Under the pieces are notes generated by a model. The model did not search any database. It saw only the letters and a list, made by a program, of their open reading frames with translations, and was not told the origin of the DNA. A stretch of 34,109 bases of DNA. Source: Bacteroidota bacterium. Lineage in GTDB: Bacteria; Bacteroidota; Ignavibacteria; UBA10030; SZUA-254. The first letter of the stretch is position 1. Every line of letters begins with the position of its first letter. The translations under genes were made by a program, and so were the position numbers. This document shows positions 3,517-25,246 of this stretch, in pieces. Where the stretch lies: NCBI GenBank assembly GCA_020056225.1, contig JAGVIE010000005.1, forward strand, positions 1 through 34,109, read 5' to 3'.

Positions 3517-4869
3517 TTATTTTTTCTCCGGCGACTGAACAACATCGGAAGCGTGCTCTTTGGGCGATTCATCGTCTTTAAGCTTGCCTTCGAGGAATGC
3601 ATCGTATGCGCCCATATCGAAATGACCGTGACCGCTCAGGTTGAAAAGAATCGTTTTCGATATTCCTTCCTGTTTCGCTTTTTCCGCCTCGGCAATCGCA
3701 CTGCAAATAGCGTGAGCTGATTCGGGAGCCGGGATTATTCCCTCAGTCTGAGCGAATAATCGCGCCGTTGTGAACACATCCGATTGCTTGACCGCGACCG
3801 CTTCGATATATTTTTCTTTTGTTAGATGACTGACAAGCGGCGCCATGCCGTGGTAACGCAATCCGCCGGCGTGAATCGGAGGAGGCACGAAATTATGACC
3901 GAGCGAATACATCGGCATCAGAGGCGTCATCTTGGCGCTGTCGCCGAAGTCATAGCCGAACGTGCCGCGCGTAAGAGACGGGCACGAATCCGGCTCAACT
4001 GCAAGCGCCTTAAAATTCTTTCCTGTGAATTTATCCTGCAAGAATGGAAACGCCAAACCGGCAAAATTACTTCCGCCGCCTACACAACCGATGATCACAT
4101 CCGGATAGTAACCGGCAAGCTCCATTTGTTTTTTTGCCTCAAGCCCAACGACAGTTTGGTGCAGAAGAACGTGGTTCAAAACGCTGCCGAGTGCATAGCG
4201 TGTATCGTCGCGGGAGAGCGCCTCTTCAATTGCTTCGCTGATGGCGATGCCGAGACTTCCCGGTGAATCCGGATCTGCCAGCAGCACTTTGCGTCCGAAT
4301 GCTGTTTGCGTGCTCGGACTTGCAGTTACGCTTGCGCCCCAGGTCATCATCATCGCGCGGCGGTATGGCTTCTGCTGGTAACTGATTTTCACCATGTACA
4401 CTTTGCACTCGATGCCGAACTGTTTACATGCAAAGCTCAATGCGCTTCCCCACTGTCCGGCTCCGGTTTCCGTGGTGAGGCGCTTTACGCCCGCTTTCAT
4501 ATTGTAATATGCCTGCGGGACTGCCGTGTTCGTTTTGTGGCTGCCTGCAGGACTGACGCCTTCATATTTATAAAAGATTTTTGCCGGTGTTTGTAGAGCT
4601 TTCTCTAATCTATGGGCACGGAAGAGGGGGGAGGGTCTCCACAATTTGTAAATATCGAGAACCTCATCGGGGATATCGATCCACCGCTCTGTGCTTGCTT
4701 CCTGCTTGATCAGTTCCATCGGGAAGAGCCGTTCAAGGTCTGCTGGACCCACCGGTTGTTTCGTGCCGGGATGTAGCGGAGGCAGCGGGGGCGACGGTAG
4801 ATCCGCCATGATGTTGTACCACTGACGCGGTAAATCTTGTTCTGGTAGAATTATTTTTGTTGTGTCCAT
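3517..4869 (-). CDS. trpB: Tryptophan synthase beta chain, TrpB2 type
   Basis: This 450-residue PLP enzyme makes L-tryptophan from indole and serine (EC 4.2.1.20). The first ATG with a Shine-Dalgarno (AAGGAATG, minus strand) is at 4869; the frame stays open upstream to 5028 but there it runs through a repeat. TrpB2 features are the long N-terminal extension ([27 protein letters not shown]), [17 protein letters not shown], the PLP lysine K112 in GSHKTNTA, and the phosphate loop GCVGGGSNF. At 450 residues it is longer than the ~400 of TrpB1. No trpA or other trp gene is adjacent, which is common for TrpB2, an enzyme thought to act alone or salvage indole. The leader upstream (5113-5339) contains what looks like a trp attenuator, a direct hint of regulation by tryptophan. 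Confidence 0.95.
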
Positions 4870-4934
4870 AAAACATTCCTTATATTGATTGTTGAAAGTA
4901 CTGTATTTGATTTCTGAATTATTTTTTCTTGTCA

Positions 4935-5058
4935 GTTGGGGGTTGTCCAAAAAAAATCTGGTAGCCGCAGACTTTATGTCTGCGTTCGTGGCATCTTCGC
5001 ACGCAAGCTGAAGACTTGCGGCTACCACACCAAACCTACTTTTAGGACAGCTCCAAAC
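4935..5058. mobile_element. MITE-like element B between the trp attenuator and trpB
   Basis: About 124 bases are bounded by imperfect inverted repeats: GTTGGGGGTTGTCCAAAA at 4935-4952 and, on the other strand, GTTTGGAGCTGTCCTAAA at 5041-5058 (14 of 18 match). Nested inside are perfect inverted repeats GGTAGCCGCA (4960-4969) and TGCGGCTACC (5017-5026), and two hairpins, 4966-4984 (CGCAGAC/GTCTGCG) and 5002-5020 (CGCAAG/CTTGCG around CTGAAGA). There is no transposase. The tips resemble ends of common insertion sequences, so a non-autonomous derivative is likely. It inflates the open frame upstream of trpB, so the part of that frame above 4869 should not be called coding. Confidence 0.55.
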
Positions 5059-5112
5059 ATCTCATTATCAACCGTTTTAGATCCTTCACTCATATCCAAG
5101 CAGACTACCGTA

Positions 5113-5147
5113 AAATAAAAAACCCACTATGAGTGCCATAATGGGTT
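5113..5147 (-). terminator. Attenuator terminator of the trp leader
   Basis: On the minus strand AACCCATTAT (5138-5147) pairs with ATAGTGGGTT (5121-5130), one G-U pair, around a 7-base loop, followed at once by TTTTTTATTTT. It is a good intrinsic terminator placed after the leader peptide and before trpB. Its 5' arm is also the partner of an alternative hairpin (see the leader at 5113-5304). Confidence 0.8.
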
Positions 5148-5175
5148 GGATAAAAAAATAGATATTAAGAGTTAC

Positions 5176-5286
5176 TTAGTCATCGTCGCAAAGCAAATCC
5201 AGCCCACGTAAAATAATACGCCACCACCAGCCCAAAGTGCCTTGGCTGATGATAATTGAAGTGGTCATGGATTTGTTGTTTTTCAT
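5176..5286 (-). CDS. trpL: trp leader peptide (36 aa, three consecutive Trp)
   Basis: An ATG at 5284-5286 opens a 36-codon frame ending in TAA at 5176. The product contains SQGTLGWWWRIILRGL; the three tandem TGG codons occupy 5221-5229. Tandem Trp codons in a short ORF between a promoter and a terminator upstream of a tryptophan biosynthetic gene are the hallmark of a trp leader peptide. There is no clear Shine-Dalgarno, and the 5' untranslated part is only about 18 bases. At 36 residues it is longer than the E. coli leader (14). Met7 is an alternative start. The peptide probably has no function apart from being translated. Confidence 0.8.
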   Translation of the reverse strand: MKNNKSMTTSIIISQGTLGWWWRIILRGLDLLCDDD

Positions 5287-5310
5287 TTTATGATGTTAGA
5301 TACTATAATC

Positions 5311-5339
5311 AATATATAAGAAAATAAATAGACTGTCAA
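5311..5339 (-). promoter_or_regulatory. Consensus sigma70 promoter of the trp leader
   Basis: On the minus strand a perfect TTGACA (5334-5339) is separated by exactly 17 bases from TATATT (5311-5316). Transcription should begin near 5304, about 18 bases before the leader-peptide ATG. It is the best match to a housekeeping promoter that I see in the window. Confidence 0.8.
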
Positions 5340-5489
5340 GGGGTTGGGTAAAATAATTTTGACGGTCAAGATTCTGTTGATTTCTGATTCTGAACACATT
5401 CTACAATTCTTTGGTGCTCATAAAAATTCTCTGTGAGCAAAAGCATTGAGAGGACTCAATAATCATTTTCGATTTTGTGAGCACCGTTG

Positions 5490-6104
5490 CTACTGATGTT
5501 GTGTGCCGTACAAGATTTCCTTTAACCCTGGTATAGTGATGCGCGCTTCATTGTTGTCATAACGAAATTCCCGGGACACTGGTGGAATTGTTGGACCGTT
5601 ACTGTGATGTCCCAGAGCCTCGATCACCTCTCGCTGGATAGCGGGATTGGTTAGGATCACGAAACTATAAGACGAACTATCATCGGGATAATCATCGTAA
5701 AACTTGATCTCCTGATGACCACCGACAGGAATTGTTTCCGCCTTCTGGTTGCAGCAGAGTCCACCGAATGTATTGGTTTGATACGGGTGTGGGTTGAGAT
5801 TCCTGAAAACGAGGACATACGGTTTAGTAAAGTCAGCATTCCCCGCATTTCTAACCGTGATATAAAATCTTACTTCGGGTGGGTACATAGTTCGATCTAG
5901 TGGTTCCCGTGGCGGCGGCGGGATGTACTCATACTCGATGTTTGAGATTGTCAAATCCGGGGCGACAGTGAGTGAATCGATTATGGACCACTCCGCCTGC
6001 CATGCTTCCTGATCAAAGTCACGGAGGATGGTATACCCGCATCCCGTTAAACAACACGTGATGACAGCAATAGATGTGAATGTAAATAAATCAGTACGCT
6101 TCAT
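5490..6104 (-). CDS. Putative lipoprotein with CARDB-like beta domain
   Basis: This 204-residue protein starts at the ATG at 6104, preceded by GGTGAAAG; a longer frame to 6161 would bury the signal. It has a lipoprotein signal: MKRTDLF, a hydrophobic stretch, then the lipobox LTGC with Cys22 as the lipidated residue. The mature part is beta-rich, with VRFYITVRNAGNADFTKPYV, an arrangement like the CARDB/NEW3 Ig-like domains found in FCB cell-surface proteins. The substrate is unknown. The gene stands alone between the trp leader promoter and a hairpin at 6239-6280. Confidence 0.7.
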   Translation of the reverse strand: MKRTDLFTFTSIAVITCCLTGCGYTILRDFDQEAWQAEWSIIDSLTVAPDLTISNIEYEYIPPPPREPLDRTMYPPEVRFYITVRNAGNADFTKPYVLVFRNLNPHPYQTNTFGGLCCNQKAETIPVGGHQEIKFYDDYPDDSSSYSFVILTNPAIQREVIEALGHHSNGPTIPPVSREFRYDNNEARITIPGLKEILYGTQHQ

Positions 6105-23521: not shown

Positions 23522-25246
23522 ATGACAGAAAAATACAAACATCTGCATCCCGTTTGGGTAAGGGCGGCACTCCTCGGAAGTTTGTGGGGCTCGGTTGAGA
23601 TTATCATCGGGAGCTTTCTGCATAATCTTCGTGTACCATTTACAGGAACGATTCTTTCGGCAATCGGGATATCGATACTCATCGGTGGACAGAAACTCTG
23701 GAATGAAAAAGGTTTAGTATGGCGGGCTGGTGTGGTATGCGCCTTGATGAAATCGATTTCTCCGAGCGCTGTTATTATCGGTCCGATGGTTGGAATACTA
23801 ACTGAAGCGTTCGCACTTGAACTGTTCGTTCGCATATCCGGGGGGGCGCGCATCGGTTTGTTGATCGGCGGAATGATTACGGCATGTTTACCTTTTATCC
23901 AGAGTATCGTCAGTCTGATAATAACATATGGATTCAATATCGCGGTTTTGTATTTAGAAGCATACCGGATTGCCGCGAAGAACGTGGGTATACACAGTTT
24001 AGATGCGTACGATGTCATCGGAATATTTTTAACTGTGAATGCGCTATTCGGGTTAGGCGCGGTTTTCCTCGGTATTGCAGTCGGTAAGAATGCCGTTAAG
24101 GGTACGCTTGACCCGGTGCCCGAATCGAATGAAAAATATTCGGCTTGGACATCGGAAGAATCACAGCTATTTTCTGTCACTGTGCTAATTCTTACCGTCA
24201 TCATTATCCCGTTGATCCTTTATGCAATCGGCGCTTTGTCGCTTGTATGGTCGTTTGCTCTTGTCGCCTTATATATAATATCTATGATGGTGTTTTATCC
24301 TAAAGCGTGGAAAAGATTTTCCAAACCGAAATTATGGATTGAGATGATTGTAATAACCGTTTTTGCAGGATTACTTCTCGGTGAGATGTCGGGCGGTTCA
24401 TCGGGCGGAATGTGGGGCGGCATCGTCATAGGTTTGCAAATGAGTGTCAGAGCCGCATTCATGGTCGTTGCTTTCACGATCATCGGGATTGAACTTAGGA
24501 ATCCGAGAATAATTAATTGGATAATGAACAAAGGTTTCGGGCAAATCGGTATTGCGATGGAGATGGCATTCGATGCACTGCCGCTTATGGTAGCATCGCT
24601 CGGAAACCAGCGCAAACTGCTGCGCCATCCGGTTCTTTCGCTTTCCCGTATGCTCTCTGTAGCGAATAATCGGCTAAAAGAATTAAACCATGATGGAATA
24701 AGTACCGTGCAAATTTATTTCCTCACCGGTAACCGTGGAAGTGGAAAAACCAAATTGCTCTTGAGATTGGTGGAAGAATTTAAGAATAGAAATCTACCGG
24801 TTAGTGGAATTATATCGCCGGCTGTTTTCATCGATTCAGTCAGGATTGGGTACGATGTAGCGGATATTCAAACTGGGGAAAAAGTTCCGCTATGCAGGAC
24901 TGATGTTGAAAAAGAAGGAAACCGGATCGGCAATTTTACTTTTTTACATGAAGGGTTGGAATTTGGAAACCGGGTTTTAGAAAAATCCAACATGATGGAT
25001 GCCAGTTTCGTGATTGTAGATGAAGTGGGTCCGTTGGAACTTAGAGAGGAGGGATGGACGATCTCATTAAATCGGCTTATGGCAGAAAGAATATCTCACC
25101 TCTTAATCGTTGTTCGTGAGAGTTTAATCGAGCGGGTAAAAGAACGGTGGAAGATTCAACCTGAAGCTGTTTGGAATCTTAACTCGGTAAATTCTGAAGA
25201 ACTATTTTTAGAAATCATAAATAAAATCGGCAAGAATACTAATTAG
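23522..25246 (+). CDS. Fused ECF-like membrane protein with C-terminal THEP1-type NTPase
   Basis: This 574-residue single chain has three parts. Residues ~1-195 hold about six hydrophobic helices with short loops, like the substrate-binding S component of an ECF transporter. Residues ~215-390 hold a second membrane block with polar, charged helices (LQMSVRAAFMVVAFTIIGIE, RNPRIINWIMNKGFGQIGI), similar in pattern to the ECF T component. Residues ~395-574 are a THEP1/NTPase_1 P-loop domain, with Walker A GNRGSGKT (403-410) and VIVDEVGPLELREEGW (497-512) as Walker B. No ABC signature is present. If the reading is right, one chain carries substrate binding, coupling and an energising NTPase that is not of the usual ABC kind. 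The start follows a terminator-containing leader; a TonB receptor follows after 18 bases. Domain assignment to the membrane parts is by pattern only. Confidence 0.7.
   Translation: MTEKYKHLHPVWVRAALLGSLWGSVEIIIGSFLHNLRVPFTGTILSAIGISILIGGQKLWNEKGLVWRAGVVCALMKSISPSAVIIGPMVGILTEAFALELFVRISGGARIGLLIGGMITACLPFIQSIVSLIITYGFNIAVLYLEAYRIAAKNVGIHSLDAYDVIGIFLTVNALFGLGAVFLGIAVGKNAVKGTLDPVPESNEKYSAWTSEESQLFSVTVLILTVIIIPLILYAIGALSLVWSFALVALYIISMMVFYPKAWKRFSKPKLWIEMIVITVFAGLLLGEMSGGSSGGMWGGIVIGLQMSVRAAFMVVAFTIIGIELRNPRIINWIMNKGFGQIGIAMEMAFDALPLMVASLGNQRKLLRHPVLSLSRMLSVANNRLKELNHDGISTVQIYFLTGNRGSGKTKLLLRLVEEFKNRNLPVSGIISPAVFIDSVRIGYDVADIQTGEKVPLCRTDVEKEGNRIGNFTFLHEGLEFGNRVLEKSNMMDASFVIVDEVGPLELREEGWTISLNRLMAERISHLLIVVRESLIERVKERWKIQPEAVWNLNSVNSEELFLEIINKIGKNTN

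Follow-up and report, generated by a model that had tools for sequence, protein, structure and literature searches.

Whether TrpB2 serves tryptophan (Trp) biosynthesis or indole salvage is a standing question, and a study of Thermococcus kodakarensis reportedly dealt with TrpB1 and TrpB2 in both Trp synthesis and indole salvage. The window, which is the entire 34,109-nucleotide stretch of DNA analysed here, raises this question anew, as its minus strand carries a trpB2 gene behind what an earlier note, made from the sequence alone, described as a complete trp attenuator. How would Trp control such a gene, and what would the gene be for? We consider it quite probable that a ribosome-mediated transcription attenuator couples the expression of a stand-alone TrpB2 to the supply of charged tRNA-Trp; no de novo Trp pathway was detected in the bacterium concerned.

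Architecture and predicted operation of the trpB2 leader

Read on the minus strand, the region contains a promoter-like site, Trp codons within an ORF, segment 2, the stop codon of the ORF, segment 3, a terminator, and trpB2, in that order (Table 1). All of the attenuator parts lie at the coordinates given in the earlier note, including the 36-codon ORF with three consecutive TGG codons and the 3:4 terminator with its U-run; the promoter, which was called perfect, is not quite so. Segment 1, for which a pairing but no position had been given, is best placed close to the start of the ORF. Several of these elements are kept in G007, the nearest relative found, which belongs to the same family but another genus and has a TrpB2 80% identical to that of the window.

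Table 1. Elements of the trpB2 leader and the gene that follows it in the window
Feature	Position	Strand	Remarks
Promoter-like site TTGACA-N17-TATATT	5311..5339	-	11/12 consensus bases; both boxes kept in G007
-35 box, TTGACA	5339-5334	-	17-nt spacer to -10
-10 box, TATATT	5316-5311	-	part of promoter-like site
Leader peptide ORF, 36 codons + stop	5176..5286	-	MKNNKSMTTSIIISQGTLGWWWRIILRGLDLLCDDD
Segment 1, close to ORF start, pairs with segment 2	5261..5274	-	kept in G007
Three consecutive Trp codons (codons 20-22)	5221..5229	-	putative stall site
Segment 2	5197..5207	-	kept in G007
Segment 3, partner of segment 2 (antiterminator) or of segment 4 (terminator)	5141..5151	-	
Intrinsic terminator (3:4), 5147-5121, with T-rich tail, 5120-5111	5111..5147	-	
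Palindromic dispersed repeat stretch, between terminator and gene	4951..5040	-	6 other places in genome
trpB2, 450 codons + stop	3517..4869	-	NF009057 and TIGR01415 above cut-off

The -10 box lies 24 nt from the leader ATG in the window and 25 nt in G007, and no Shine-Dalgarno-like box was seen before the ATG of the window. The gap between the leader stop and trpB2 is 306 nt, as compared with 155 nt in G007. The dispersed repeat within this gap has a palindromic fold of about -33 kcal/mol, and its position between the terminator and trpB2 is probably incidental. Covariance models of Rfam 15 (4227 families), including the T-box and a proteobacterial trp leader family, gave no match at E<=1 on 4860-5480, which rules out a known RNA class at the leader. 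The sole gathering-level Rfam match in the window is a Moco riboswitch (RF01055; 23220-23377, plus strand; 64.6 bits, gathering 36), with an ORF (23522-25246) about 145 bases after it.

The product of the gene scores 749.2 bits with NF009057 (cut-off 366) and 659.4 bits with TIGR01415 (cut-off 518.85). The TrpB1 model TIGR00263 yields 147.4 bits, far below its cut-off of 392.45, and a TrpB1 misnamed as TrpB2 is ruled out by these scores. The nearest solved structures are 6hul_B, 4qys_B, and 6hte_B (454, 403, and 402 bits); the 6hul chain is labelled beta chain 1, and the three say nothing on regulation. A TrpB2-only transcription unit, as claimed in the earlier note, is likely, but a 91-aa ORF on the same strand (3403-3128), 113 bases after trpB2 and with no NCBIfam match at E<=0.001, could be co-transcribed, and another gene comes after trpB2 in G007.

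The predicted pairings are stronger than expected by chance. Segments 2 and 3 of the window pair at 10 of 11 positions, as had been noted, with -13.8 kcal/mol (p=0.011 against dinucleotide shuffles; p=0.857 with segment 4 as the control arm). The pairing of segments 1 and 2 has -16.0 kcal/mol, with p=0.02 in the window and 0.0015 in G007, which are modest values from two sequences only.

Based on this arrangement, we propose the following mechanism. With enough Trp, the ribosome would pass the three Trp codons and segment 2 would first be covered and then held by segment 1, whose place near the ORF start would allow it to do so after the ribosome terminates; segment 3 would pair with segment 4, and RNA polymerase would stop before trpB2. 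When Trp is scarce, the ribosome would stall on the Trp codons, its front edge stopping just short of segment 2. The front edge of a ribosome lies about 12-15 nt ahead, and with the third Trp codon in the A site it would be near 5211, leaving segment 2 free. Segment 2 would then pair with segment 3 before segment 4 is made, no terminator would form, and trpB2 would be transcribed. TrpB2 itself would most likely condense serine with indole, either from an outside source or from the cell's own tryptophanase-family enzyme.

Folding of the leader had been proposed in the earlier note as a check. The stretch 5211-5135 folds as the antiterminator, but once segment 4 is included the terminator has the lowest energy, whether or not segment 1 is present, so the switch would depend on timing. 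The stop codon lies 18 nt past segment 2, further than in most relatives, and a terminating ribosome would therefore leave part of segment 2 uncovered. The usual geometry, with a pairing region that extends to the stop codon, is found in many relatives.

Trp pathway of the window's genome and the role of TrpB2

The window's genome (3.5 Mb) contains a single TrpB-like match, which is the TrpB2 of the window, and no TrpB1. Whole-genome searches found neither TrpA nor TrpC, and all 14 control genomes have matches in both searches. The only TrpE-like match is PabB; by cut-off alone the TrpE model is a weak test, passing in only 5 of the 14 controls. Without TrpA, TrpC, TrpB1, and TrpE, TrpB2 could supply Trp only with indole from elsewhere. 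On this pattern, with PabB in place of TrpE, TrpB2 is unlikely to be the last step of a de novo pathway in this genome, as judged from a search set of TrpA, TrpC, TrpB1, and TrpE.

It is conceivable that the attenuator works and that TrpB2 nevertheless catalyses the last step of a de novo pathway, the other genes having escaped detection through gaps or because the enzymes were not recognised; the assembly is in 62 contigs, the search set was limited as stated, and in some leader-bearing relatives trpB2 heads a full trp cluster, such as trpB2-E-G-(D)-C-F-B-A in G073, where D is assigned by position only. We regard this as unlikely, since completeness is given as 100 and TrpA, TrpC, and TrpB1 are also absent from three leader-bearing relatives that are 99-100% complete, namely G007 (99%, 10 contigs), G033, and G105. 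A further leader-bearing genome, G038 (96%), lacks TrpA and has a weak TrpC match of 75 bits (cut-off 27). Among the leader-bearing rows, 15 of 25 were counted as having TrpA, and several of those without it are incomplete genomes. Because leader-bearing relatives with a full pathway exist, the leader is not tied to pathway loss and is no sign of salvage by itself.

Indole might also come from within the cell, as the window's genome encodes a tryptophanase-family enzyme (NF009709, 704 bits; cut-off 285) that does not reach the cut-offs of the models specific for TnaA and tyrosine phenol-lyase. In G033, a second, distant trpB2 paralogue and a tryptophanase-family gene overlap on one strand (L204 5542-8336; G033:C36), bringing together genes for opposite reactions.

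These gene contents are best read as indole salvage controlled by ribosome-mediated Trp attenuation, and Trp-responsive control of salvage explains both the attenuator and the missing pathway. The earlier note had concluded that TrpB2 is regulated as a biosynthetic enzyme. Setting this against salvage is a false choice in a genome with no TrpA, TrpC, or TrpB1 and with only PabB. The presence of a predicted Trp-sensing switch on TrpB2 in genomes where the rest of the pathway was not detected points to supplying Trp as the job of TrpB2, and such a switch makes the salvage idea testable.

Conservation, covariation, and distribution of Trp leaders

The G007 leader encodes the peptide MLYNKSILTQKTTSISNLCWWWRVLSSGLDFLIDEK. 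When its DNA is aligned with that of the window, conservation is seen as islands: the two promoter boxes (-35 and -10), the ATG, segment 1 (AAATCCAT), the Trp codons, segment 2 (GTGGG.TGGATTT), and the terminator. The window's own 2:3 and 3:4 helices rest on one sequence and that of G007, where the arms hardly vary. Most other leaders combine a C-rich segment 2 with a segment 3 resembling GGTGG(A/G)AACGC, which mirrors the window, where segment 2 is G-rich, and the window leader scores 9.4 bits with, and is not found by, a covariance model of 18 other leaders.

Compensatory changes in orthologous leaders, which the earlier note had suggested looking for, occur in both helices of these 18 relatives, which share an architecture with an arm type other than that of the window. 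The rows, which are related, were chosen from 27 leaders (26 and L160), leaving out the window and L131 for their different arm type, L123 and L152 for a different stem, L037, L068, L156, and L150, as well as L155 (a near copy of L138), and both structures were written from the same 18 sequences. The 2:3 helix is 74.5% paired versus 37-45% when slid, and both partners have changed in 9 of its 16 pairs; at columns 30-91, 10 rows have CG, 7 have GC, and 1 has UA, whereas at columns 36-85, 10 rows have UA and 5 have CG. The 3:4 helix is 93.8% paired versus 39-51% when slid, with 5 of 14 pairs changed on both sides. RNAalifold picked the 2:3 helix by itself, along with a helix joining the Trp codons to segment 4. 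Covariation in both of two mutually exclusive helices with a common arm is the signature of a switch, seen here in the relatives. Conservation and covariation together lend good support to a complete trp attenuator predicted to control the lone trpB2, and the attenuator is very likely functional.

Across the 25 leaders in which a terminator was found (out of 26), the 2:3 pairing reaches p<=0.05 in 11, versus none with the control arm. These shuffle counts and a Fisher p=1.4e-10 overstate the case because the rows are related, and in L132 and L150 a second, downstream terminator was picked. In L037 and L068 the 2:3 pairing does not exceed shuffles (p=0.70 and 0.43), and a classical antiterminator may be missing from these leaders. 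Both a promoter and an in-frame ATG could be recognised in 19 of the 26; in 15 of these the -10 box lies 6-11 nt from the ATG, with no Shine-Dalgarno-like box seen; such short distances suggest that the leader ORFs are leaderless.

A leader RNA or peptide acting mainly in trans, with cis control minor, has a precedent in Sinorhizobium meliloti, where the trpL leader peptide is reported to function in trans (PMC7298713). For the present leaders this is very improbable, given that the peptides differ widely outside the Trp tract except among near relatives and that cis control explains the covarying arms.

On both strands of the window, the only short ORF with three consecutive Trp codons (WWW) followed by a strong terminator is the trpB2 leader. 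The same combination was counted in 132 related loci (1,959,094 bases over both strands) 21 times within 500 nt upstream of trpB2 and never elsewhere, an association that rules out a chance ORF beside a stray terminator. This count left out 32 loci meant as duplicates, of which L094, L101, and L103 are not, and missed L131, where an upstream TTG makes the ORF exceed the length limit. That the hairpin is merely the terminator of the upstream gene (6161-5490), which is on the same strand and for which 5147-5121 is the only terminator-like site reported within 4800-5600, with the three Trp codons arising by chance, is hardly credible in view of this association, the conserved islands, the covariation in relatives, and the promoter-like site between that gene and the hairpin.

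The leader is not universal. A search with TrpB2 over 150 related genomes matched a TrpB2 or a TrpB1 in 102 of them, and 58 TrpB2 genes were examined, including that of the window and excluding two fragments (G046, G075); three had too little upstream sequence. The other 55 have 450 nt or more upstream, and a Trp-rich leader and terminator precede 25 of them (G031 is included, yet has no terminator in the shuffle-test analysis). Orthologous leaders lacking the Trp codons or pairings, named in the earlier note as counting against an attenuator, correspond to the other 30, five of which form a distant clade (47-50% identity). A leader common to all trpB2 genes is thus ruled out, and the element is lineage-specific. 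Among 78 named loci (L002-L081 without L030 and L049, several with little upstream sequence), only L037 and L068, both from Bacteroidota MAGs, have a WWW leader with a strong terminator; weaker ORFs with Trp codons lie close to a hairpin in L066 and L029.

The window and G007 form a starred pair outside the main leader clade in a quickly made tree of 132 TrpB2 proteins, whose deep branches are weak and which includes long rows. This clade has 19 rows, 18 with the leader, and the remaining row, G029, has only 78 nt upstream. G105, G132, and G031 group with G020 in another part of the tree, and the two Bacteroidota MAGs fall in yet another. Leader status changes 7 times if G029 is counted as lacking the leader and 6 times without short-upstream rows; starred branches force 4 changes on the former count, one of which G029 may explain. 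Simple inheritance from the main leader clade was rejected on the position of the window and G007, subject to the weak deep branches. The tree positions and different arm types suggest several origins of trpB2 leaders. As a broader scenario, plausible though somewhat short of probable, Trp attenuators with unrelated arms may have been recruited to trpB2 several times to gate indole salvage; in some lineages TrpB2 and its attenuator would be a remnant of Trp synthesis, drawing on indole only at low charged tRNA-Trp, and the start codon of many leader ORFs would coincide with the transcription start or lie only a few bases from it, coupling translation to transcription from the first codon.

Leaders of similar build are found with other codons. 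Over 294 genomes of the class, the covariance model of 18 leaders identified 21 loci at E<=7e-5, all of them leaders: 18 are Trp-rich, 17 at trpB2 and one (G029) at a contig end with no gene in view, and three are Tyr-rich, in the window's genome (C4:138008-138098), G007, and G058. Nine weaker loci up to E=0.009 comprise one Trp leader (G132) and eight that resemble chance matches to TGG repeats, and eight further matches without a locus are the opposite strand of stronger ones. The Tyr/Phe-rich leader of the window's genome, MSMFKRYYLYYYPWARDSALSLR, with a terminator (L181 1462-1591; C4, about 137969-138098), precedes a DAHP synthase gene (NF006421, TIGR01361), as do those of G007 and G058; the 2:3 pairings in the window's genome and G007 do not exceed shuffles (p=0.13 and 0.08). 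Leaders of other sequence occur near trp genes in three of seven stretches checked. Two of them, in G024 and G018, are Trp leaders that precede trpE. The third, MQKINTIYYTYYRQAFYYPYWWCVSFRKWC (L199 4168-4257; G020:C29), has both Tyr and Trp codons and precedes a cluster of G020 that starts with trpE and contains DAHP synthase, trpB, and trpA. No leader was found in the checked stretches of G043, G059, G017, and G022, the presence of trpE being unconfirmed in the last two. Leader codon choice thus follows the pathway, which serves as an internal control for the mechanism.

Comparison with known attenuators

The window shares with the trpL type of Escherichia coli and other Proteobacteria a leader ORF with Trp codons, exclusive 2:3 and 3:4 helices, a U-run terminator, and a Trp gene downstream (PMC7755916). 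It differs in controlling a stand-alone TrpB2 rather than a trpE operon, in the lack of an Rfam match at E<=1, and in having segment 2 inside a longer ORF, 18 nt before the stop. In S. meliloti, the leader ATG forms the 5' end of the trpL RNA (PMC7298713), and the short spacing in 15 of 19 leaders points to a similar arrangement here, but trpL controls trpE(G) and the window instead has 24 nt between the -10 box and the ATG.

In Corynebacterium diphtheriae, an attenuator has been predicted before trpB2A, so that a Trp leader likewise precedes a second trpB (PMC1262725); there, trpB2 is the name given to the second trpB copy, which lies in an operon with trpA and may or may not belong to the TrpB2 family. 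Chlamydia trachomatis trpRBA similarly places Trp salvage from indole under Trp-dependent control, but has TrpA with TrpB and is controlled by TrpR and YtgR; the cis leader annotated for it is unvalidated and contains no series of consecutive Trp codons (PMC7755916).

A 2010 survey was aware of no leader-peptide system outside Proteobacteria and Actinobacteria, except for its own Firmicutes cases and an atypical ermC leader (PMC2965389), and a later paper cites predicted TrpL attenuators in 16 species (PMC7755916). In the open-access literature, apart from subscription papers (the main reviews of trp regulation among them), no report was found of trpB2 attenuation or of leader peptides in Ignavibacteria or Bacteroidetes that match this element, nor any paper on TrpEb_2. 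The mechanism is classical and already known; what is new, as far as the open-access literature shows, is the controlled gene, its setting, and its lineage, and probably also the several independent origins. Leader-peptide attenuation is thereby extended to an Ignavibacteriae-type lineage.
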